A stretch of DNA of 14,640 nucleotides from Candidatus Aminicenantota bacterium. Its GTDB lineage: Bacteria > Acidobacteriota > Aminicenantia > JAMOAD01. A program made the position numbers and the translations under genes. The notes under the pieces were generated by a model. The model was not told the DNA's origin and searched no databases. It saw only the letters and a list, made by a program, of their open reading frames with translations. Each line of letters begins with the position of its first letter. Position 1 is the stretch's first letter. Shown piece by piece: positions 246-13,203 of the stretch. Location: the NCBI GenBank assembly GCA_027061995.1, contig JAMOUT010000013.1, positions 1 through 14,640 on the forward strand. Direction: 5' to 3'.

Positions 246-698
246 TTATGCTTTAGGCTTCTTTTTATCTTCCGGCATAATGACAGGTAGTTTTGCGTTT
301 TTCCAAGCGGTTATTCCACCCTCAATATTTAAAACATTCTTATATCCGGCTTTCATAAGCTTGTATGCCGCCATGGTTCCTCTACCGCCTTTGTAGCAGA
401 AAACTATAATCTTTTGCTTTTTATCCTTAACATATTTTGTTATCTCTTCAACTATTACAGACCAAGGTATGTTAATGGCACTATTTATTGTTCCCAACAG
501 GTATTCTTTTTCCGATCTGACATCAAAAAGAGAGATTCCCCCTTCATCCAACATCTTTTTTGCATTTTCGGGAGAAATTTGGACAACATTTTTTTTCGCT
601 TCCTCATAAAATGCTTTTTGTGAAAACAGGGTTATCGCAGAAACCGATAAAATTAATATAAATATTAATAATCTTGTATTTTTCTTCAATCTATTCAT
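246..698 (-). CDS. Exported rhodanese-domain sulfurtransferase
   Basis: A 150-residue protein with an N-terminal hydrophobic segment (about residues 9-26), read as a signal peptide or anchor with no clear lipobox, followed by one rhodanese domain (about 38-140). The domain shows the substrate loop C101-YKGG-R106-G with the persulfide-forming Cys, the LFDVRSEKEY segment (57-66) and the closing GGITAWKNAKLPV. Single-domain exported rhodaneses carry sulfane sulfur; in Wolinella the comparable protein Sud feeds polysulfide to its reductase. The start ATG overlaps the stop of the preceding yeeE-like gene by 8 bases and has only AAGG next to it, so translation probably depends on reinitiation. It is the last gene of the operon. 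The Lys-rich tail runs into the repeat cluster. Substrate and partner are inferred. Confidence 0.9.
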   Translation of the reverse strand: MNRLKKNTRLLIFILILSVSAITLFSQKAFYEEAKKNVVQISPENAKKMLDEGGISLFDVRSEKEYLLGTINSAINIPWSVIVEEITKYVKDKKQKIIVFCYKGGRGTMAAYKLMKAGYKNVLNIEGGITAWKNAKLPVIMPEDKKKPKA

Positions 699-1281
699 CC
701 TTGAATTTTTTTTCTACCTTCATAACTATCGGGAATGTTACAACAACAATTACAAAAGCAATTATAATCAAAACGATATAGGGGATATTCCATAATTCCA
801 TTAGAGTTTTCTCCTTGATTTTACCAAGATGATTAAGACCTTTGAAAAGCCATGAATACCCTATATCCCATATTCCTATTCCCACATAGATTCCCAATAT
901 AAAAGCCATTGCATCAAAACTTCCGGTTACCGCACTTACTAATGATGTTCCCGGACAGAATCCGCCGAAAACAAATCCTATTCCGAATAGGAATCCGCCG
1001 ATAAGGGATGATAAAAGATAAGAGGGATGAAATGTAAGCATATCGAATTTTAAAAGCCCTATGGTCGAGGAAAGCCAAATAAGTAATCCCGCGGATACAA
1101 TTCCTCCGAAGATAACTTTATAGACCGCAAAATCATATAGATAAAAAACACCTGCAAGTTTTTTAGAGCTGTAAAAACCGGATCTGTAAAGAGCATAACC
1201 GAAAAAGAAACCTATGATGAGTGCTAAAAGCATCAAAGTTCCGTGACTCCAACCTAATATTTTATATAATGGTCCTATCAT
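691..1281 (-). CDS. YeeE/YedE-family membrane protein (half-transporter)
   Basis: A 196-residue integral membrane protein with about five hydrophobic segments. The family signature GGFCPGTS has its conserved Cys at residue 109, followed by a Gly-rich helix (GIYVGIGIW). YeeE/YedE (TsuA-like) proteins move thiosulfate or related sulfur species through paired Cys-containing halves; this protein is the size of one half and carries the CPG-type motif normally seen in the second half. I chose the ATG at 1281 rather than the TTG at 1287: AGGAGG sits 8 bases upstream of the ATG, and this ATG overlaps the upstream TGA as ATGA, whereas the TTG would be only 2 bases from the SD. Its likely partner is the YeeE half fused to the cytochrome b just upstream. 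Confidence 0.88.
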   Translation of the reverse strand: MIGPLYKILGWSHGTLMLLALIIGFFFGYALYRSGFYSSKKLAGVFYLYDFAVYKVIFGGIVSAGLLIWLSSTIGLLKFDMLTFHPSYLLSSLIGGFLFGIGFVFGGFCPGTSLVSAVTGSFDAMAFILGIYVGIGIWDIGYSWLFKGLNHLGKIKEKTLMELWNIPYIVLIIIAFVIVVVTFPIVMKVEKKFKDE

Positions 1282-2534
1282 TTCCAAAACCTCCTAAAAA
1301 TAAATGCGGCAAGATAGCCTCCGGCAAAAAGGGCGAGCATGAAAATCCAGCCTGAAGGGGAGAAAACAGCACCTCCCGAAAGAGCCTGAGAAGAAGTGCA
1401 ACCTCCCGCTATTCTTGTTGCAAATCCTACTATTATCCCTCCGATGACAGATAGAACAAGTCTTTGAATATCGGTTATATTTTTACCCCTTTCTATTCTG
1501 AATCTGAATTTATGATGGGCGAAAAACATTGCCGCAAGAGTGCCTCCCACTAATCCGAATCCCATAAATACAAGGAAATTCCAAAGAGGATAAACTCCCC
1601 AATAATGTCCCATATACGGGTGAGCTTTTACAGCTTCAGGTGCAAAAGCACCGAGAACGGCAATAAGTGTTCTTTGAAAAAAACCGGAAGCTCCGAGTCC
1701 GAAACCTGTTAAATAATAAGAGAAAAATAGAACGACTCCGAGAAAGATTCCAGCAAAAATGGGGCCCCAATCTTTTTTCGGCTCTAATTCCGGAGGTGCG
1801 TCTAACCCTTTTTTCTTTTTTCTCCAGAATTTATAGTGATGATGATAAGCAAAATATTCAGAAATATAGCCTGTAATCATGCCGAAAAATCCCTCCTGTT
1901 CGGGGGGATAAAGAAGAGCCATATATATATGAACCGAAAGTCCCATGACAACAAGTCCTACGGCTCCGAAATGAATTATTATAGCCCATCTTATAAGAGC
2001 GGGGGGTAAAAGATGAAAAGCCATGATAAAGCCGGTAACAATTATTACCGGAACCATGATAGCAACCACCTGAGCGAAGAGTTTCTGTCCTCCGTTATAT
2101 GAATCTTGAGGCGGGTAATGAACTTTTTTATTTAGGGCAACCTCTTCGAATTTAGTTTTAAGCCAATCAATATCATCTTTTGTTATAAAGAATATCTGTT
2201 TTAGAGTGGGTTTAAGGTATCTTCTCCATCCGAAAAGAGCGTAAAGAATCAGGACGAAAGCCCAAATCACTCCGACAAATATATGGGTTTTAATAATATT
2301 CGCCCTTGTTCCATATACCCCGTCAACAATATCGGTAAGAAATTTGGGAATAAACCTGTAATTGATTGATACAATAAGAGCGGCTCCCGTAATTAATTCG
2401 GTAATCCATACGAAAAGATTGAACCAATGGAGAAAAACCGTTGCAACATGATGCTTTTTTATCTTTTTATTTTTTAACTCCTCTTTTTCTTCGGGCGTAA
2501 GAGGTAAGTATTGTTCTAAAATCTCATTCCTCAT
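1278..2534 (-). CDS. Cytochrome b (FdnI-like) fused to a YeeE/YedE half
   Basis: A 418-residue membrane protein of two parts. Residues about 28-235 resemble the formate dehydrogenase gamma subunit / diheme cytochrome b family: candidate heme ligands are H36, H84, H188 and H202, and the 14-residue spacing of the last pair equals that of E. coli FdnI (H155/H169). Residues about 255-418 are a YeeE/YedE unit with GHYWGVYPLWNF and GGCTSSQALSGG, its conserved Cys at 379. A charged linker (HHHYKFWRKKKKG, about 231-243) joins them. The reading frame is uninterrupted, so this is a real fusion in this sequence. The cytochrome part would pass electrons between the quinone pool and the iron-sulfur subunit; the YeeE part would handle a sulfur species. 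The SD GGAGGAAG precedes the ATG, and the gene overlaps the ferredoxin gene by 11 bases. Confidence 0.9.
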   Translation of the reverse strand: MRNEILEQYLPLTPEEKEELKNKKIKKHHVATVFLHWFNLFVWITELITGAALIVSINYRFIPKFLTDIVDGVYGTRANIIKTHIFVGVIWAFVLILYALFGWRRYLKPTLKQIFFITKDDIDWLKTKFEEVALNKKVHYPPQDSYNGGQKLFAQVVAIMVPVIIVTGFIMAFHLLPPALIRWAIIIHFGAVGLVVMGLSVHIYMALLYPPEQEGFFGMITGYISEYFAYHHHYKFWRKKKKGLDAPPELEPKKDWGPIFAGIFLGVVLFFSYYLTGFGLGASGFFQRTLIAVLGAFAPEAVKAHPYMGHYWGVYPLWNFLVFMGFGLVGGTLAAMFFAHHKFRFRIERGKNITDIQRLVLSVIGGIIVGFATRIAGGCTSSQALSGGAVFSPSGWIFMLALFAGGYLAAFIFRRFWK

Positions 2535-3258
2535 TTTCTTCCTCCTTTTCCCCCTGATTTATCTGGAACATATAAGCAATCAAACTTCCTACAAAAGTTG
2601 CTCCGGCTCCGAGTATAACAAAAGGTCTGAGAACATTAGACCAGATTTTTGCGGGAAGCGTGTCTTTTTTCTTCGGGGGGTAGGTTTTAATAATAGCTTC
2701 AACATTTTTTCTTCTCCCTTTATAATAAACATTAGGTCCGGGATTAACCTTTTTTGTTGCGATAACAAAGGTATTTCCCGTTTTAAGTTTTTTACTGATA
2801 TCAGAATTAGAGTCTTCAAGATCTCCGAAAATTTTTGCGGAGACTATACATGTTTTAACACAAGCCGGTTCTTCCCGACCTAATCGGGGAAAACAAAAAT
2901 CACATTTATCAACTTTTTGTGTTACCGGATTAATGAATCTCGCATCATAAGGGCATGCCTCAACACAATAACCGCAACCAATACATAATTCCTGATTTAC
3001 AAGAACAATACCCGTGTCAGTATCCTTGAAAGTAGCTTGAGTGGGGCAAGCGGGAACACACGGAGGATTATCACAATGATTACATTGCCCTACGAATGAT
3101 GTTAGAACAAGTTCATCATTATGCTGAATGGGACCTATATGTTTAACCCATGTTCTGAAATAATCTTCGGGGGTTTGCCATTGAGCTTTACATGCAAGCA
3201 TACACGCCTGACATCCTACACATCGGTCAAGATCTATGACCATTCCATATTTTGCCAT
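2524..3258 (-). CDS. Four-[4Fe-4S] ferredoxin subunit with membrane anchor (PsrB/FdnH-like)
   Basis: A 244-residue electron-transfer subunit. Four Cys clusters are visible: C13/16/19/23, C59/62/67/71, C92/95/98/102 and C119/122/133/137, the layout of the DmsB/PsrB/FdnH/TtrB family. A hydrophobic segment at about 211-231 and an acidic tail follow, so like FdnH it is probably anchored in the membrane on the side of the catalytic subunit. I chose the ATG at 3258, not the TTG at 3264: GGAGG lies 6 bases before this ATG, and the codon overlaps the upstream stop as TAATG. The subunit would link the molybdoenzyme to the cytochrome b fusion encoded next. The acidic C-terminus (KEEENEE) is encoded by the polypurine stretch that also serves as SD for the next gene. 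Confidence 0.93.
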   Translation of the reverse strand: MAKYGMVIDLDRCVGCQACMLACKAQWQTPEDYFRTWVKHIGPIQHNDELVLTSFVGQCNHCDNPPCVPACPTQATFKDTDTGIVLVNQELCIGCGYCVEACPYDARFINPVTQKVDKCDFCFPRLGREEPACVKTCIVSAKIFGDLEDSNSDISKKLKTGNTFVIATKKVNPGPNVYYKGRRKNVEAIIKTYPPKKKDTLPAKIWSNVLRPFVILGAGATFVGSLIAYMFQINQGEKEEENEE

Positions 3259-5579
3259 TAGCAACCTCCTTCTTCCTCTTCTTCCTGACTACCCGCAGGA
3301 ATGGGAGCCGTTAATTTAATACTGATTGTTTTTTCAGGTTTTTTCTTAAAACCCGAAGGTTTTTGTTTTATAAACGGAAAATCTATCTCTTTTCCGTTTT
3401 TAATTATTTTAACAAAATTTATCCTTTTTGCCATTCCTCCCATTATGGGATCCAAAACAATTTTAGTGATAAGATCATTATCAGACATCCCTTTGTTATA
3501 TGCAAGTTTTAAAAACGGTGATTTTGAACCGAATCCGTGATAGGTATGAACCATATCCGGTCTGATTCCCGGTGTGATTTTCAGTTTTACCGGATCCGAA
3601 ATAACTCCATCCTGATTTTTCAGTTTTACATATTCCCCGTCTTTCAAACCCATCTTTGCCGCTGCTTCCGAATTAATCCATAAATCATTTTCAGGTAATA
3701 AAGCATGGAGCCATTTATTGTTTTCGGTTCTTGAAAATGTGTGAACAGGAGATCTTCCATAGCTTAATCTCGCCCATCCTTTGGGAACATCCTCGACAGG
3801 TTCGTATTTCGGAATAGGATCTTTATTCGCTTCTTTTAATTTTGTTGAAAAAAGTTCTATTTTACCTGTTGGTGTGGGAAATTTATAATTTCCTCCGAAA
3901 TCATCAAGGAAAGGTTTTCCTTCAAGTCTGAATATTCCCCCCTGTCTTTCAACTTTATCAAGAGTTATATTTACCGCAGATAATGCAAGGTTAAGATAAT
4001 CTTCCATTGAATTGCACGGGAAACACTCTTTTAGTCCGAGTCTTTTTCCTAATTCGGATACAATATAAAAAGCATCCTTTGATTCGTATAAAGGTTGAAC
4101 AACCGGCCTTCTTATTTGAATAAAAGGGGTCCTCGAATCCTGAATGGCAAAAGGGATGTCATATCTTTCAAGATATGTTGCTTCGGGAAGAATAATATCA
4201 GCATAAAGTGATGGCTCGGTCGGTTTTATATCAACAACAACCATAAAATCAAGTTTATTTATCGCATCTATGGTTTTTTGAGGTCTCGGTGTATTATGAA
4301 TTACATTTGAGCCATAGACAATCCACATCTTAATATCCCCTTTTAGTGTGGCTTCTCTTATACATTCTGTTGTTGTTTTCATAAATGGATATCCGCTTGT
4401 ATCACAGAGATAATCCTCTTTTTTCTTAGCATTGTTCGGGCATGGACAACCTTTTAACTTTATCTTCGTAGGAAAGAAGTATCCCCCTTTTCTTCCCACA
4501 CTGCCCAATATAGCCGATAGAATCGCCATTGCTCTGATTCTTTGCGTATCATTTCCATACCAAGTTGATTGTCTTCCGGGGAATATATTTACCGCGGGAC
4601 TGCTTTTTCCCATAAGTTCCGCAATCTCAATAATCATCTCTTTTTTTATCTCGGTTATTTTTTCAGCCCATTCGGGAGTGTATTTTGAAACCTCTTTTTT
4701 TAGCTCATCAAAACCGTATGTATATTTAGCCACGAATTCTTTATCATACAGATTATGTTGAATAATATAATTGATTATTGTCAGAATAAGTGCTGTATCT
4801 GTTCCCGGTTTTATAGGGAGCCAATAATCAGCTTTACTTGCCGCAACAGAATATCTCGGGTCAGCAACTATAAGTTTTGCTTTTTTCCCTTCTACCGCTT
4901 CAATGAATTCTCTAACTATTGAAGTATGCGCATTTTCTCCGAAATGGGAACCTGTCAGATAAATCACTTTGGAATTAATAAAATCAGCTCTTTCCGGTGA
5001 ACCGGCTCCAACTCCGAAAGTTAACTCATATGCAACATCACGATTACCTCTGCATTGATCAAAAGAAGCGTGAGCTATCCTGTCTGTTCCGAAATTTTTA
5101 AGAAGTTTTCTCATAGGTATGGAGGATGAGCCGTGAGAAAGATTGGCAACACTCTCTGCTCCATGTTTTTCCTTTAGTTCCAGCATCTTTTTTGCGATTC
5201 GATCAAGAGCATCTTTCCAACTGATTCTTTTCCACTTGGGTTTTCCTCTTGTTCCGATGTTTAGAAGAGGATATTTTAGTCTGTCGGGATCATAAAGCTG
5301 CATAATTCCGGCATTTCCTCTCCCGCAGATTTTTTCCCCATTGTGAGGGTTAAGAGGATTTCCTTCGATTTTCAAAAGTCTTCCGTCTTTTACTTTTCCG
5401 ATAATTCCGCATTTCCAGAAACACATTTCACAGACGGAAGGGATAAGTTCAACTTTTTCCTTACCCGCTTTTCCGGGAGGAAATTTTTTGAAAACGAAAC
5501 TATAATCCGCCGCTGCAATCGCTCCCGCACCCATAAACGATTGCTTTAAAAAATCACGACGGGAAATTTGTTTTCCCAT
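3258..5579 (-). CDS. Tat-exported molybdopterin oxidoreductase, catalytic subunit (polysulfide/thiosulfate reductase type)
   Basis: A 773-residue member of the DMSO-reductase superfamily. The N-terminus carries the twin-arginine signal SRRDFLK (6-12) and a hydrophobic stretch, so the enzyme should act outside the cytoplasmic membrane. The [4Fe-4S] motif uses C50, C53, C57 and C85. The likely Mo ligand is C176 in SFDQCRGNRDVAYELTFG, close to Cys173 of PsrA. A pterin-binding stretch DPRYSVAASKADYWLP lies at about 240-255, and HTYHGFG occurs near the C-terminus as in Psr/Phs enzymes. Extra cysteines occur in GCPCPNN (378, 380) and at 392. The C-terminus ends EEEEEGGC, encoded by a purine tract holding the next gene's SD. 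AAAGGAG precedes the ATG, which overlaps the regulator-chaperone gene by 26 bases. The YeeE and rhodanese neighbours favour an inorganic sulfur substrate (polysulfide, thiosulfate or tetrathionate), but the substrate is inferred and arsenate-type relatives also use Cys. Confidence 0.9.
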   Translation of the reverse strand: MGKQISRRDFLKQSFMGAGAIAAADYSFVFKKFPPGKAGKEKVELIPSVCEMCFWKCGIIGKVKDGRLLKIEGNPLNPHNGEKICGRGNAGIMQLYDPDRLKYPLLNIGTRGKPKWKRISWKDALDRIAKKMLELKEKHGAESVANLSHGSSSIPMRKLLKNFGTDRIAHASFDQCRGNRDVAYELTFGVGAGSPERADFINSKVIYLTGSHFGENAHTSIVREFIEAVEGKKAKLIVADPRYSVAASKADYWLPIKPGTDTALILTIINYIIQHNLYDKEFVAKYTYGFDELKKEVSKYTPEWAEKITEIKKEMIIEIAELMGKSSPAVNIFPGRQSTWYGNDTQRIRAMAILSAILGSVGRKGGYFFPTKIKLKGCPCPNNAKKKEDYLCDTSGYPFMKTTTECIREATLKGDIKMWIVYGSNVIHNTPRPQKTIDAINKLDFMVVVDIKPTEPSLYADIILPEATYLERYDIPFAIQDSRTPFIQIRRPVVQPLYESKDAFYIVSELGKRLGLKECFPCNSMEDYLNLALSAVNITLDKVERQGGIFRLEGKPFLDDFGGNYKFPTPTGKIELFSTKLKEANKDPIPKYEPVEDVPKGWARLSYGRSPVHTFSRTENNKWLHALLPENDLWINSEAAAKMGLKDGEYVKLKNQDGVISDPVKLKITPGIRPDMVHTYHGFGSKSPFLKLAYNKGMSDNDLITKIVLDPIMGGMAKRINFVKIIKNGKEIDFPFIKQKPSGFKKKPEKTISIKLTAPIPAGSQEEEEEGGC

Positions 5580-6408
5580 GTTTTAACTCCTTTAATCTAT
5601 TTTTTATAAAATTTAATGTTTGCTTTGCAATATATGAGTAGAAACCATTTTTTCCGCTATTTATAATTTTATCCGTAAATTTTTCAAACCATAAAAGGAA
5701 ATGTTCTTCAAGAAATTTCCACTCTAATAATATATTATTATCATTGAATAAATTCGATAAAAAAATAAGCTCGAATATGAGATAATCGGGGGGTTGGTTT
5801 CTGTTTTCTATCAGATATCCACCGAGTTTATAATAGTTTTCAATATGCTCGTAGAGATCAGGTCTTAAAATATACGATGATGCATAAGGGGGAGCCGGGA
5901 CAGAGGGGTAATTATTTATGAATAATGAAGTATGGGATAGTTCGAGGTTATCAATATTAGGGATATCAAAATTATCGGATATATTTAATATCTTTAAAAA
6001 ATTTTCAAAGTATTCTTTTGTTTTATTATTGGGATAATCAAATAATAATGCAAAAACAATATAGATATTATCGGAAAAATTTCCCTGTTGTTTTAATAAA
6101 TTACTTCCTTCGAGGGCTATAAGTTCCACCACTTTTTTCATGTTTTTTATGGCATCTATAATCTCTTTGTGTTTTAGCGAGTAATATATGAAGCTCCCTT
6201 TTTTTTGTTTATCAAGAACACCTATTTTATATAAAATGCTAAGATTATTTGAAAGACGACTAATAGGTATATCCAATTTTTTTTGAATCTGGGAAACATT
6301 CAGATTTTCTTTTTCCCATATTGTTTCTATTATTCTTATTCTAATGGGTGTGCTTATGGATTTGCATATTGATGTATAATAATCATAAAACTTTTCATCA
6401 TGCTCCAT
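5554..6408 (-). CDS. ArsR-type winged helix fused to a TorD/DmsD-like chaperone
   Basis: Residues are numbered from an upstream in-frame ATG at 6429. About residues 18-95 form an ArsR-type winged helix: TPIRIRIIETI, then NVSQIQKKLDIPISRLSNNLSIL as helix-turn-helix, then LDKQKKGSFIYYSL as wing. About 105-285 match the TorD/NarJ/DmsD maturation chaperones: PAPPYASSY (178-186, the family's PP-y-ESvY motif), PPDYLIFEL (213-221, family PDHiaiELeF), EEHFLLWFEKF (241-251) and FYSYIA (263-268). TorD-type chaperones bind Tat signal peptides and fit molybdenum cofactor. The gene is first in the operon and overlaps the molybdoenzyme gene, its expected client. I prefer the ATG at 6408 (284 aa), because the 6429 ATG lies inside the spacer of a strong promoter. 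Only one Cys remains with that start, so a dithiol sulfur switch is unlikely. The two-domain reading is firm; the sensing role is inference. Confidence 0.85.
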   Translation of the reverse strand: MEHDEKFYDYYTSICKSISTPIRIRIIETIWEKENLNVSQIQKKLDIPISRLSNNLSILYKIGVLDKQKKGSFIYYSLKHKEIIDAIKNMKKVVELIALEGSNLLKQQGNFSDNIYIVFALLFDYPNNKTKEYFENFLKILNISDNFDIPNIDNLELSHTSLFINNYPSVPAPPYASSYILRPDLYEHIENYYKLGGYLIENRNQPPDYLIFELIFLSNLFNDNNILLEWKFLEEHFLLWFEKFTDKIINSGKNGFYSYIAKQTLNFIKNRLKELKHGKTNFPS

Positions 6409-6413
6409 ATTAC

Positions 6414-6442
6414 AATATAATAAAAACATATATTATTGTCAA
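6414..6442 (-). promoter_or_regulatory. Sigma-70-type promoter of the sulfur operon
   Basis: On the minus strand TTGACA (6442-6437) and TATATT (6419-6414) are separated by exactly 17 bases. The -10 box ends 5 bases before the ATG at 6408, so the transcript should begin at or beside that codon. No Shine-Dalgarno sequence precedes the ATG, which suggests a leaderless mRNA. The next gene carries a normal SD. Confidence 0.7.
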
Positions 6443-6460
6443 GTATTTTAAGAAATATAG

Positions 6461-6480
6461 ATTTCATGAATTGTTGAAAT
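6461..6480. promoter_or_regulatory. Inverted repeat, possible operator between divergent genes
   Basis: ATTTCA (6461-6466) and TGAAAT (6475-6480) form a perfect 6-bp inverted repeat with an 8-base spacer, and TTCATGAA at 6463-6470 is itself palindromic. It lies just upstream of the ArsR-TorD promoter in the divergent region, where an ArsR-type protein could bind. AT richness makes chance repeats likely, so the call is tentative. Confidence 0.3.
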
Positions 6481-6495
6481 GTTTAATTATAAAAT

Positions 6496-6543: not shown

Positions 6544-8628
6544 ATGAAGAGAATATTAGTAATTATTTTTATCTTTACACTCGCCATCTTGATTTTTGCA
6601 GATGACAAATATTCGGGCGAAACTCCATTGTTTTCATCTTACATAGCTCCGTATGAAAGAAGTTCATATTTTGTTGACGAAGGTTATCACCTGACATATT
6701 ATGATGATTGTTCTCCCGTAAAACTTGAAAATAGTGTGTCAGGAAATATATTGTTGGGCTATAAGTTAGGTAAAATGTTTGCATATAAAGTGGATGATTA
6801 TTATGTTAAGCCTTACATTACAAAGTCTTATCCCGACTCTTTTGTTTTGGAAGCCGAACCATTTGTCGGTGTGAAAATAAAAATTGAATTTGCGGTTTAT
6901 TCCTCCGATAGTTTTATAATGAATATAGAGTTCGAAAAATCGAATTCATCTGAATTGGATATTTTCATTATATATGAAAATACGGGACAAGATGTAAATG
7001 CAAAATTATCGGGAAATAATTCTTTTCAAATATCCTATAAACAGAAAGGGAAAGGAAAATATTTTCAACAAAAAACATTAAAAGGGTTTCAAAATAAAAG
7101 GTATGGTTTGTTTGTAGCTGATAAGAGCATTTATTCATACGGAGGATATCAAAATTTGATAAATGATATAAGCACTGTTGTCGCAACGGATGAAAATATT
7201 TTAAATGGTTCTCTCAATAATCCGTTAAAAACGGTTGTTGTTGATTTTGTTTTTAAGAAAAGTAAAGATGAATTGAAAATTTACAAAAAAACCGTTCAAG
7301 AGAAAGATGAAAAGAGTTTGTCTTCGGGTATAAATCATCTTAAAAAAATTAAGTTTGACAGTATCATAAATTTTAATGAAAAAATTTTGAAGAACATTCC
7401 CGAAATCAGGTTTAAAAACAGGTTTGAGAGGTTATTATATTATGGAGGCATATATTTGGGCAGGCAACAATTTTTACCTGCAGCAGGGCAGTTTGATTAT
7501 CCTTATTATGTTTTTTCCCGAGAACCTAAGTGGGGTTGGGGGCATGAGGGACAGGTTTTTCATGAAAGTTTATCCATGCATACCATTGCTCTTTTTGATC
7601 CTATACTTGCGATAGGTTCTCAAAGAAATTTTTTCAAAGTCCAGGAAAAAGATGGTTATCTTCCATACAGGGTGGGTGGTTTTTTTACGAGAACTTTTCC
7701 TGTTAACGGAGAAAAAACAACATCCGCTCCCTATTTTTCATGGACAAATCTTGAGATATATAAAACAGCGAGAAAATCAGGTATTGTATCAAACAAAGAG
7801 TTGATAAAATATCTTCGGCAATCTTATGAGGCGGGAGTCAAATTTACAAATTATATTTTAAAAACAAGAGATAAAAATCATAATGGTTTGTTGGAGTGGG
7901 GAGGACATACTCTTCTTGAATGTGTTCGGGATTATCTTAATGCTGTTTTTGATCTATTGGGTAAAAAACCGGATACATTAAATCAACTTGAAGCTCTTGA
8001 TTTAAGTTCAATGGTTGTAAAGGAGATGAAATCCCTTTCAGAAATGGCAAAGATTTTAGGCAAAAAAGAAGAGTCTCTTAAATGGAAAAGGAAAGCTGAT
8101 AAAATGGCTTCCCTTATTAACAGATATATGTGGGATGAAAAAACAGGCTTTTACTATCACATTCATAAAAGGACAATGAATTTTAAAACTCCGACGGGTA
8201 TATTATTAAAAAGAAGAGAGATTATAGGATTTTTACCTTTATGGGCGGGAATAGCTTCAAAAAGGCAGGCTGAAATTCTTATAAAACATCTTACCGATGA
8301 AAAAGAGTTTTGGAGGAGATTCGGGATACCCACATTATCGGCGGATGATTATTATTATGATTCTCAGGTTTTATCATGTTGCAGATGGAATGGACCCGTA
8401 TGGATAACATGGGTGTATCCCGTGTTTAAAGGTGTTATGGATTACGGATATAAGGATATAGCGGAAGAAATATTATCGAAGATGGAAAAGGCAATGATAT
8501 TTCAATTAAGAAAAAATCATCGGTTTTGGGAGAGTTATTCGCCGGATTATACAAAAATTAATTCACCGAAAAATTATATTTGGGACACGCTAATTTCAAG
8601 AATGATATATGATATGCGGATTGAATAA
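6544..8628 (+). CDS. Exported GH63-like (alpha/alpha)6 glycosidase
   Basis: A 694-residue protein with a signal peptide (about residues 1-19, MKRILVIIFIFTLAILIFA), then a beta-rich region (about 25-285) and a C-terminal helical barrel. Stretches typical of the GH63/GH37 toroid fold are visible: GWGHEGQVFHESLSMH, NHNGLLEWGG, YMWDEKTGFYY, GFLPLWAGIA, RFGIPTLSADD and RWNGPVWI. The late FWESYSP (E663) fits the general-base Glu of this clan; the acid is less clear, with D463 and D470 in RDYLNAVFD as candidates. Relatives include YgjK-type glucosidases and mannosylglycerate/glucosylglycerate hydrolases, and the sugar substrate cannot be told from sequence. GGGAGGA lies 4 bases before the ATG. The gene is transcribed alone, divergently from the sulfur operon, and ends 15 bases from the convergent flippase gene. 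No sugar transporter is nearby. Confidence 0.78.
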   Translation: MKRILVIIFIFTLAILIFADDKYSGETPLFSSYIAPYERSSYFVDEGYHLTYYDDCSPVKLENSVSGNILLGYKLGKMFAYKVDDYYVKPYITKSYPDSFVLEAEPFVGVKIKIEFAVYSSDSFIMNIEFEKSNSSELDIFIIYENTGQDVNAKLSGNNSFQISYKQKGKGKYFQQKTLKGFQNKRYGLFVADKSIYSYGGYQNLINDISTVVATDENILNGSLNNPLKTVVVDFVFKKSKDELKIYKKTVQEKDEKSLSSGINHLKKIKFDSIINFNEKILKNIPEIRFKNRFERLLYYGGIYLGRQQFLPAAGQFDYPYYVFSREPKWGWGHEGQVFHESLSMHTIALFDPILAIGSQRNFFKVQEKDGYLPYRVGGFFTRTFPVNGEKTTSAPYFSWTNLEIYKTARKSGIVSNKELIKYLRQSYEAGVKFTNYILKTRDKNHNGLLEWGGHTLLECVRDYLNAVFDLLGKKPDTLNQLEALDLSSMVVKEMKSLSEMAKILGKKEESLKWKRKADKMASLINRYMWDEKTGFYYHIHKRTMNFKTPTGILLKRREIIGFLPLWAGIASKRQAEILIKHLTDEKEFWRRFGIPTLSADDYYYDSQVLSCCRWNGPVWITWVYPVFKGVMDYGYKDIAEEILSKMEKAMIFQLRKNHRFWESYSPDYTKINSPKNYIWDTLISRMIYDMRIE

Positions 8629-11487: not shown

Positions 11488-13203
11488 ATGTTTATACTTA
11501 AAATTCTGTATCCTGATAAAAAGCGGGAAACTTATTATCTGAATTACGGTAAATTTGATATAGGTTCAAACAATTCAAATGATATTGAGATAATTGATAA
11601 AACAGTATCAAGAAAACATTGTAAATTGATGGTTGAAAAAGGGGAACCTCTTTATATTGTTGACAGTGGTAGTAAAAACGGGATTACTATTAACGGTGAA
11701 AAAGTTGACAGGGGTGAGTTACATGATGGTGATACTATACTGCTCGGAAGAATCAAATTATTGATTGAAGAGATTGCAGATAATGATGGGGTAAAATTTA
11801 AGAAAGGGGAAAAATTTAAAAAGATTTCCAACAAAGACAGCGGAGAAACTCGGGATATTTTTATAAGCACGGGAATATCTCTTATCTCCGTGATTAAAGC
11901 GATAGAGGAAAAAAATTCATCCAAATATTTTGATATAATTAATAAATATCTTTTATCAGCGGAGGATATTTTAATCGGAAAGAGAAGTAAAAAAGGGATA
12001 AAGATTCTCTATTTGGAGGGGGATAAAGAGTTTTTATTGGATTCTGTTGGTATGATTGATGGTGACAAAGATGAAACTATGAAAGATGGGGTTTATTATG
12101 CTGATTATAAGGATTTTTTTATCTTATGCAGAAAGAATGATACTTTTCCCATAACTCTTTTCAATAGTATAATTAATGTATATGATTATATTTTTGATTG
12201 CTCTTATTCCTCAAAAGTCTCGGGAATAGTTAAAAGGGATAGTGATGAATATATAATTAATCCCAATTTTATATTCAGATCTAAAATCATGAAAAACCTT
12301 GTTACAAGAGCGAAAAAATTGGCAAAATCAAATATTAACATTATGTTGAGGGGGGAATCAGGTGTGGGGAAAGAGCTTCTCGCCTCTTTTATTCATTACC
12401 ATAGTAAGAGAAAAAACAATCCCTTTGTAACTCTAAATTGTGCCGCAATTCCCGAGAATCTTCTTGAATCTGAGCTTTTCGGACATGAAAAAGGGGCTTT
12501 TACAGGTGCTATTAAATTGAAGATAGGAAAATTTGAGATGGCTGATAAAGGAACCCTTTTCCTCGATGAGGTAACCTCCACTTCCACTTATTTTCAGGCA
12601 AAATTATTGAGAGCAATTCAATTCGGTGAATTTTACCGATTAGGTGGAGATGAACCTGTAAAAGTCGATGTTCGGGTTATTTCCGCAACGAACAGTGATA
12701 TTGAACAGATGATAGAAGAGGGAAAATTCAGAGATGATCTCTATTTCAGATTGGTTGCAGAGGATATGTATATTCCGCCTCTGAGAGAAAGAAAAGATGA
12801 TATTCTTGAATTGGTAAAATTTTTCATTGAAAAATATTCTAAGGAAAATAAAAAAAATATAACGGGTATCAGTGATAAAGCTTTAAAAATACTGATATCT
12901 TATGATTTCCCCGGAAATATTCGGGAACTTGAGCATGAGATAGCGAAAATGGTTGTTTTGGCTGATGACGGAGATATATTAAGGGAGAAATATATTTCGG
13001 AAAAATTGAAGAATAAATCAAGAGTGATTAAAAGTAAAAATAAAACATGGGATTTGAATAAAAATGTGGAAGATTTGGAGAAAGAGATAATTATAAGGGC
13101 AATCGAAAATTTTAAAAATAAATCAAAGATTGCAAAGGAGTTGAATATCTCAAGAACGACTCTTGATATAAAGTTAAAAAAATATAATATAGAGGTGAAT
13201 TAA
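11488..13203 (+). CDS. FHA-domain sigma-54-dependent transcriptional activator
   Basis: A 571-residue regulator. The N-terminal FHA domain (about 18-96) has GS at 26-27, S41-R42 with H44, and N64-G65, the phosphothreonine-binding residues. Residues about 105-255 form a region I cannot name with confidence, possibly a degenerate GAF-like sensor. The AAA+ domain (about 265-490) has Walker A GESGVGKE (289-296), the sigma-54-contacting GAFTGA loop (336-341) and Walker B GTLFLDE (355-361). A Fis-type helix-turn-helix lies at the end (SKIAKELNISRTTLDIKLKKY). It should bind enhancer-like DNA and open sigma-54 promoters, with input from Ser/Thr phosphorylation through the FHA domain instead of a response-regulator receiver. 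The ATG has no SD and sits 8 bases after a -10 box. Its targets are not evident here. The editing-domain gene follows directly. Confidence 0.93.
   Translation: MFILKILYPDKKRETYYLNYGKFDIGSNNSNDIEIIDKTVSRKHCKLMVEKGEPLYIVDSGSKNGITINGEKVDRGELHDGDTILLGRIKLLIEEIADNDGVKFKKGEKFKKISNKDSGETRDIFISTGISLISVIKAIEEKNSSKYFDIINKYLLSAEDILIGKRSKKGIKILYLEGDKEFLLDSVGMIDGDKDETMKDGVYYADYKDFFILCRKNDTFPITLFNSIINVYDYIFDCSYSSKVSGIVKRDSDEYIINPNFIFRSKIMKNLVTRAKKLAKSNINIMLRGESGVGKELLASFIHYHSKRKNNPFVTLNCAAIPENLLESELFGHEKGAFTGAIKLKIGKFEMADKGTLFLDEVTSTSTYFQAKLLRAIQFGEFYRLGGDEPVKVDVRVISATNSDIEQMIEEGKFRDDLYFRLVAEDMYIPPLRERKDDILELVKFFIEKYSKENKKNITGISDKALKILISYDFPGNIRELEHEIAKMVVLADDGDILREKYISEKLKNKSRVIKSKNKTWDLNKNVEDLEKEIIIRAIENFKNKSKIAKELNISRTTLDIKLKKYNIEVN

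Follow-up and report, generated by a model that had tools for sequence, protein, structure and literature searches.

The stretch of DNA analysed here (the window, 14,640 nucleotides) carries on its minus strand a frame of 291 codons, open throughout from 5554 to 6429, in which an ArsR winged helix is followed by a TorD-family chaperone. The question raised by this locus is whether the two domains really form one protein and, if so, which of them would act as the sensor. The first-pass annotation favoured the chaperone domain. The analysis described below points instead to an ArsR regulator that would sense sulfur through a single cysteine, Cys15, and to which the operon's private chaperone has been attached by a recent and true fusion; we put the probability of this reading at roughly two in three.

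Table 1. Coordinates of the fusion gene, its predicted control region and the genes downstream, as positions of the window
Feature	Position (strand)	Basis or remark
arsR-torD fusion gene	5554..6408 (-)	284 aa with corrected start; open frame; N-terminus agrees with 18 aligned relatives; 6429 start lies within the promoter
ArsR winged-helix part, residues 1-106 of the corrected protein, invariant Cys15	6091..6408 (-)	NF033788; alignment; Foldseek
TorD chaperone part, PAPPYAS and PPDYLIFEL	5557..6075 (-)	PF02613; alignment; PDB profile match
Fusion junction (approximate)	6076..6096 (-)	DNA alignment: 16 nt including the torD start missing; no ATG/GTG/TTG in the torD half
Putative ArsR operator CATTTCAACAATTCATGAAATC	6460..6481 (-)	18/21 consensus positions; 1 of 301 with shuffles; exact pattern match in own genome
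-35-like box TTGACA	6437..6442 (-)	aligned at the same place in relatives
-10-like box TATATT, ends 5 nt before the start codon	6414..6419 (-)	recurs at the same place in relatives
Presumed client: Tat-signal molybdopterin enzyme, PsrA/PhsA-like, nearest solved Thermus 2vpw	3258..5579 (-)	
4Fe-4S electron-transfer subunit, PsrB-like	2524..3264 (-)	
Cytochrome b561-type membrane subunit with half of a YeeE/YedE sulfur transporter	1278..2534 (-)	PF01292 at 29-222, PF04143 at 250-407
Second YeeE/YedE half	691..1287 (-)	PF04143
Rhodanese with hydrophobic N-terminal segment	246..698 (-)	PF00581

The identity of the two domains is well defined. The N-terminal part matches the ArsR model NF033788 of NCBIfam over residues 20-92 with 55.6 bits (cut-off 55 bits), which places it in the ArsR/SmtB family; the HTH_5 match is slightly below the Pfam cut-off, and the best Foldseek matches are all winged helices of the ArsR type (NolR, PagR, HlyU, CadC). 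The C-terminal part matches PF02613 over residues 158-252 with 38.3 bits (cut-off 22.2 bits), the only match to this family in the whole genome, while the NCBIfam models for TorD and DmsD give matches below their cut-offs. A profile built from four TorDs retrieves the solved structures of AF0173, TorD and DmsD (2o9x, 1n1c, 1s9u and 3u41), in agreement with membership of the TorD/DmsD (Nitrate_red_del) family. With both NF033788 and PF02613 above cut-off in 291 open codons, the earlier claim of an uninterrupted ArsR-TorD frame stands. The sequence hallmarks that had been named for the chaperone survive only in part: PAPPYAS is kept, but PPDYLIFEL is not canonical, the histidine of the PxDH motif being replaced by tyrosine. 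The fusion and its three relatives all read PPDY, with the acidic position and the rest of the motif retained. In E. coli DmsD this histidine is part of the signal-peptide-binding region, and leader binding by the TorD half is therefore not to be assumed.

The start of the gene almost surely lies at codon 8 of the longer frame, at 6408. The ATG found there yields an N-terminus, MEHDEKFYDYY..., that is common to all relatives (M, then FY..YY..C in most), whereas the ATG at 6429, from which the gene had originally been drawn, falls in the spacer between the -35-like and the -10-like boxes and was rejected for this reason. The corrected start leaves the protein with one cysteine, Cys15, so that of the "one or two" counted earlier the first number is the right one.

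The history of the frame can be read from a small family. Four other genomes were assigned to it, and the same operon is present in three of them, all of a sister genus (records labelled Candidatus Aminicenantes). In each of these three genomes arsR and torD stand as two genes, each in its own frame, with an overlap between them. In the DNA alignment (columns 600-625) 16 nt, a number equal to 1 modulo 3, are absent from the window at the arsR/torD overlap; in the relatives these nucleotides contain the torD ATG, and without them the arsR stop codon TAA falls out of frame. Past codon 94 of the fusion, in the torD half, there is no ATG, GTG or TTG, and TorD can therefore be produced only as part of the fusion. 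That arsR and torD might be separate in the real genome and joined by an assembly or sequencing artefact is suggested by the split genes of the relatives and by the origin of the locus in a single metagenome-assembled contig. We consider this very unlikely, since the gap comprises 16 nt and not a single base, and restoring the frame leaves torD without a start codon; a frameshift scar, which would have undone the first-pass view of the gene, was rejected on the same grounds. As the split state is found in the three relatives and the other members of the ArsR subfamily described below have no TorD domain, the fused state is the derived one. By comparison of these sequences, then, this is a real, young and lineage-specific gene fusion formed by a small deletion. 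In the ancestral operon torD came after arsR, with an overlap in another frame and probably with translational coupling; as the comparison shows, a deletion of about 16 nt across the overlap removed the torD start and shifted the arsR frame into torD, and the result would be a single bifunctional protein.

The fusion is known from one metagenome-assembled genome, the only one of its genus that turned up. A second ArsR-TorD fusion did not occur among 90 TorD loci (the 30 strongest and 60 picked mostly for long frames) from 396 sampled genomes, all of Acidobacteriota. Contig searches with the whole fused protein gave no further fusion and those with the TorD alignment retrieved only the three sister-genus loci, while a plasmid search returned stand-alone ArsRs and no fusion. 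Literature searches yielded neither an ArsR-TorD nor any other HTH-TorD fusion, in keeping with the earlier remark that no characterised protein of this type is known.

The operon consists of six co-directional genes on the minus strand, in the order fusion, molybdopterin enzyme, 4Fe-4S subunit, cytochrome b-YeeE, second YeeE half and rhodanese. The enzyme has an SRRDFLK twin-arginine leader and molybdopterin domains, and the gene order is kept in the relatives. The fusion gene comes first and overlaps the enzyme gene, as had been noticed from the outset; the overlap measures 26 nt, and the same torD/enzyme overlap exists in two of the three relatives. The linkage to a Tat-exported molybdoenzyme is that expected of a TorD/DmsD chaperone. 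A molybdoenzyme, an iron-sulfur protein and a membrane quinol subunit together make up the set of a Psr/Phs operon, an assignment made from sequence that implies no substrate. The fusion is thus placed at the head of an operon predicted to encode a polysulfide/thiosulfate-reductase-like molybdoenzyme.

Some other features of the window may be recorded here. The cytochrome b561-type subunit is fused in frame with half of a YeeE/YedE transporter, the other half being encoded by the next gene, and the same arrangement is present in the three relatives; quinol oxidation and sulfur transport may be coupled in this one membrane protein. The divergent gene at 6544-8628 (+) encodes a glycoside hydrolase of the MGH1/trehalase type, which is not kept beside the operon in the relatives and is therefore probably unrelated to it. 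Farther away, at 11488-13203 (+), there is a sigma-54 activator in which an FHA domain takes the place of the receiver domain at the N-terminus.

The ArsR half belongs to a distinct subfamily, the members of which score at least 128 bits against at most 80 for other ArsRs of this class of bacteria; one member truncated at a contig end scores 97 bits. Cys15 is kept in all 19 aligned members and lies in helix a1, just before a conserved P.RL.I segment; its invariance speaks for a sensor within the ArsR domain itself. A second cysteine in the C-terminal tail of ArsR is confined to the three sister genomes and lost in the fusion, which excludes a cysteine pair involving the tail. The BigR, SqrR and SoxR sensors require two conserved cysteines that can form a sulfur bridge (PMC10451225) where the present protein has Cys15 alone; dithiol sensing of the BigR/SqrR type, already judged unlikely in the first-pass annotation, was rejected for lack of such a pair.

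In its wider range this subfamily consists of regulators that stand alone, at sulfur operons and at operons for multihaem cytochromes, without a visible TorD gene. Their neighbours, named by reading the sequences, include DsrE, TusA and Hdr-like genes (the paralogue locus L045 in the same genome, and L120), tetrathionate-reductase-like multihaem cytochromes with YeeE halves (L121, L123), a rhodanese (L047) and, elsewhere, other multihaem cytochromes. The paralogue (L045:8948-9286, contig C87) is a stand-alone ArsR, 55% identical, that heads a DsrE-TusA-Hdr-like cluster and has a similar promoter and operator-like repeat. A replacement of the operon's ArsR by this paralogue was considered, but in the ArsR tree the fused ArsR groups clearly with neither the paralogue nor the sister ArsRs. 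At another locus two arsR genes of the subfamily (L122:130-555 and 781-1098) stand in tandem ahead of a multihaem cytochrome operon.

The possibility should be considered that the ArsR half has been decaying since the fusion and that the protein now works mainly as a TorD chaperone, its DNA-binding head being vestigial. In the ArsR tree the end branch of the fused ArsR is the longest of the subfamily (0.8), so that its function may have drifted; identity to the sister-genus ArsRs is 39-46%, as compared with 50-55% between the TorD half and its free counterparts in the relatives, while the enzyme subunits of the operon reach 83-86%. Nevertheless, the ArsR half contains no stop or frameshift, it keeps the columns invariant in the other seven aligned sequences as well as Cys15 and the S.LSN.L recognition helix, and a putative operator is retained in front of it. 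The rhodanese of the same operon has diverged as fast as the ArsR half. Decay of the regulator therefore appears improbable to us.

A putative operator of the TATTTCAT-N6-ATGAAATA type was found at about half of the subfamily promoters, the other half having no good match by consensus. The consensus was taken from four promoters of a different family within the class (four genomes), which have in common the near-identical inverted repeat TATTTCATNAATTCATGAAATA; the window was excluded from it. Out of 21 positions the window site scores 18, the sites of the sister genomes 18-19, that of genome G272 19 and that of the paralogue 16. When a pattern was derived from the sites of the window and the paralogue, it matched exactly at three places in the whole genome: these two sites and one inside a protease-like gene (contig C83), which was taken as a chance occurrence. 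The only two matches located in promoters thus stand ahead of members of the subfamily. The operator is centred 12-28 nt upstream of the -35 box, a position that an activator could have as well, so that the direction of regulation is one that we infer. The transcript from the fusion promoter is probably leaderless, to judge by the position of the -10-like box. In most subfamily arsR genes the distance from the -10 box to the start codon is 5-7 nt (e.g. window 6408-6442), suggesting that leaderless transcripts are conserved. Upstream of the fusion no RNA regulator was detected by Rfam match.

We suggest that the inverted repeat at 6460-6481 is the binding site from which the ArsR half regulates its own operon, and that sulfane sulfur, polysulfide or thiosulfate-derived species modify Cys15, most likely relieving repression; a Cys15-Cys15 bridge within the dimer or simple persulfidation is possible. 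The TorD half, the divergence of which is not unusually fast beside its operon neighbours, would be the private maturation chaperone of the adjacent Tat-exported molybdoenzyme, and the fusion would fix the ratio of the two activities and tether the chaperone to the ArsR dimer.

The sensor envisaged at first was the TorD domain itself, with the unmatured client or its Tat signal peptide altering DNA binding, so that the enzyme would be made in step with the insertion of its cofactor. The physical link is direct: the structure model has the end of ArsR helix a5 near residue 106 and the beginning of the first TorD helix near 111, and with about four residues between them the domains could influence each other. 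The model, however, has a mean pLDDT of 65 and is low in the TorD half, too weak there for fold claims. The tail cysteine of the sister-genus ArsRs is also gone from the fusion, and expression of torCAD in E. coli needs bis-MGD by an unexplained mechanism (PMC10845959), which means that cofactor supply and transcription are coupled in at least one molybdoenzyme operon. Against this, a free ArsR and a free TorD serve the same operon in the relatives, where the promoter layout is unchanged and the operator similar, members of the subfamily control operons without a visible TorD gene, and Cys15 is invariant. ArsR sensing therefore needs no TorD domain, and a link between chaperone and sensor, if present, was added by the fusion. 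We regard the TorD domain as an unlikely primary sensor. It is similarly doubtful that TorD provides a second input, the client-free or client-loaded chaperone switching the ArsR dimer so that transcription tracks both enzyme maturation and sulfur supply. If the sulfur-sensing ArsR with an attached chaperone is the correct reading, client binding would affect DNA binding, if at all, as a secondary trait acquired later.

The locus offers a clean case in which a neighbouring, probably translationally coupled regulator and chaperone have been merged by one small deletion while the split state persists in close relatives, and these relatives make an added regulation by maturation state directly testable. 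It also outlines a single-cysteine ArsR subfamily with a predicted operator at operons for sulfur respiration in Aminicenantes, the regulators of which seem to have received little study.

Comparison with known systems puts each part of the locus in its place. The presumed client resembles the catalytic subunit of Thermus thermophilus PsrABC (2vpw), with which residues 6-727 align, including a cysteine at the apparent molybdenum-ligand position; the membrane subunit differs, being here of the cytochrome b type with a YeeE half. With the TorD/DmsD chaperones (DmsD 3u41, TorD 1n1c, the Archaeoglobus-type 2o9x) the fusion shares the family profile, the adjacent client gene and the PAPPY-type motif, but those proteins have no fused DNA-binding domain, and their PxDH reads PPDY here. 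The SoxR protein of Hyphomicrobium is an ArsR-type repressor that answers sulfane sulfur via Cys50 and Cys116, with the YeeE-like SoxT1B as the signal unit that it depends on (PMC10451225, PMC11582611). SoxR, sHdrR, SqrR and BigR are like the fusion in their ArsR fold and their place in sulfur-metabolism operons, in Hyphomicrobium with a YeeE-type transporter alongside. They need two cysteines, however, whereas the single one of the present subfamily is found elsewhere in the protein, in helix a1; the TorD domain of the fusion is a further difference. With its one conserved cysteine the subfamily therefore does not belong to the SoxR-type group. The sister-genus operons (JALVQI010000189, JALXDT010000295, JAMOVU010000016) have the same gene order and promoter layout and a similar operator, and differ from the window in their separate arsR and torD in different frames and in the second cysteine of the ArsR tail.
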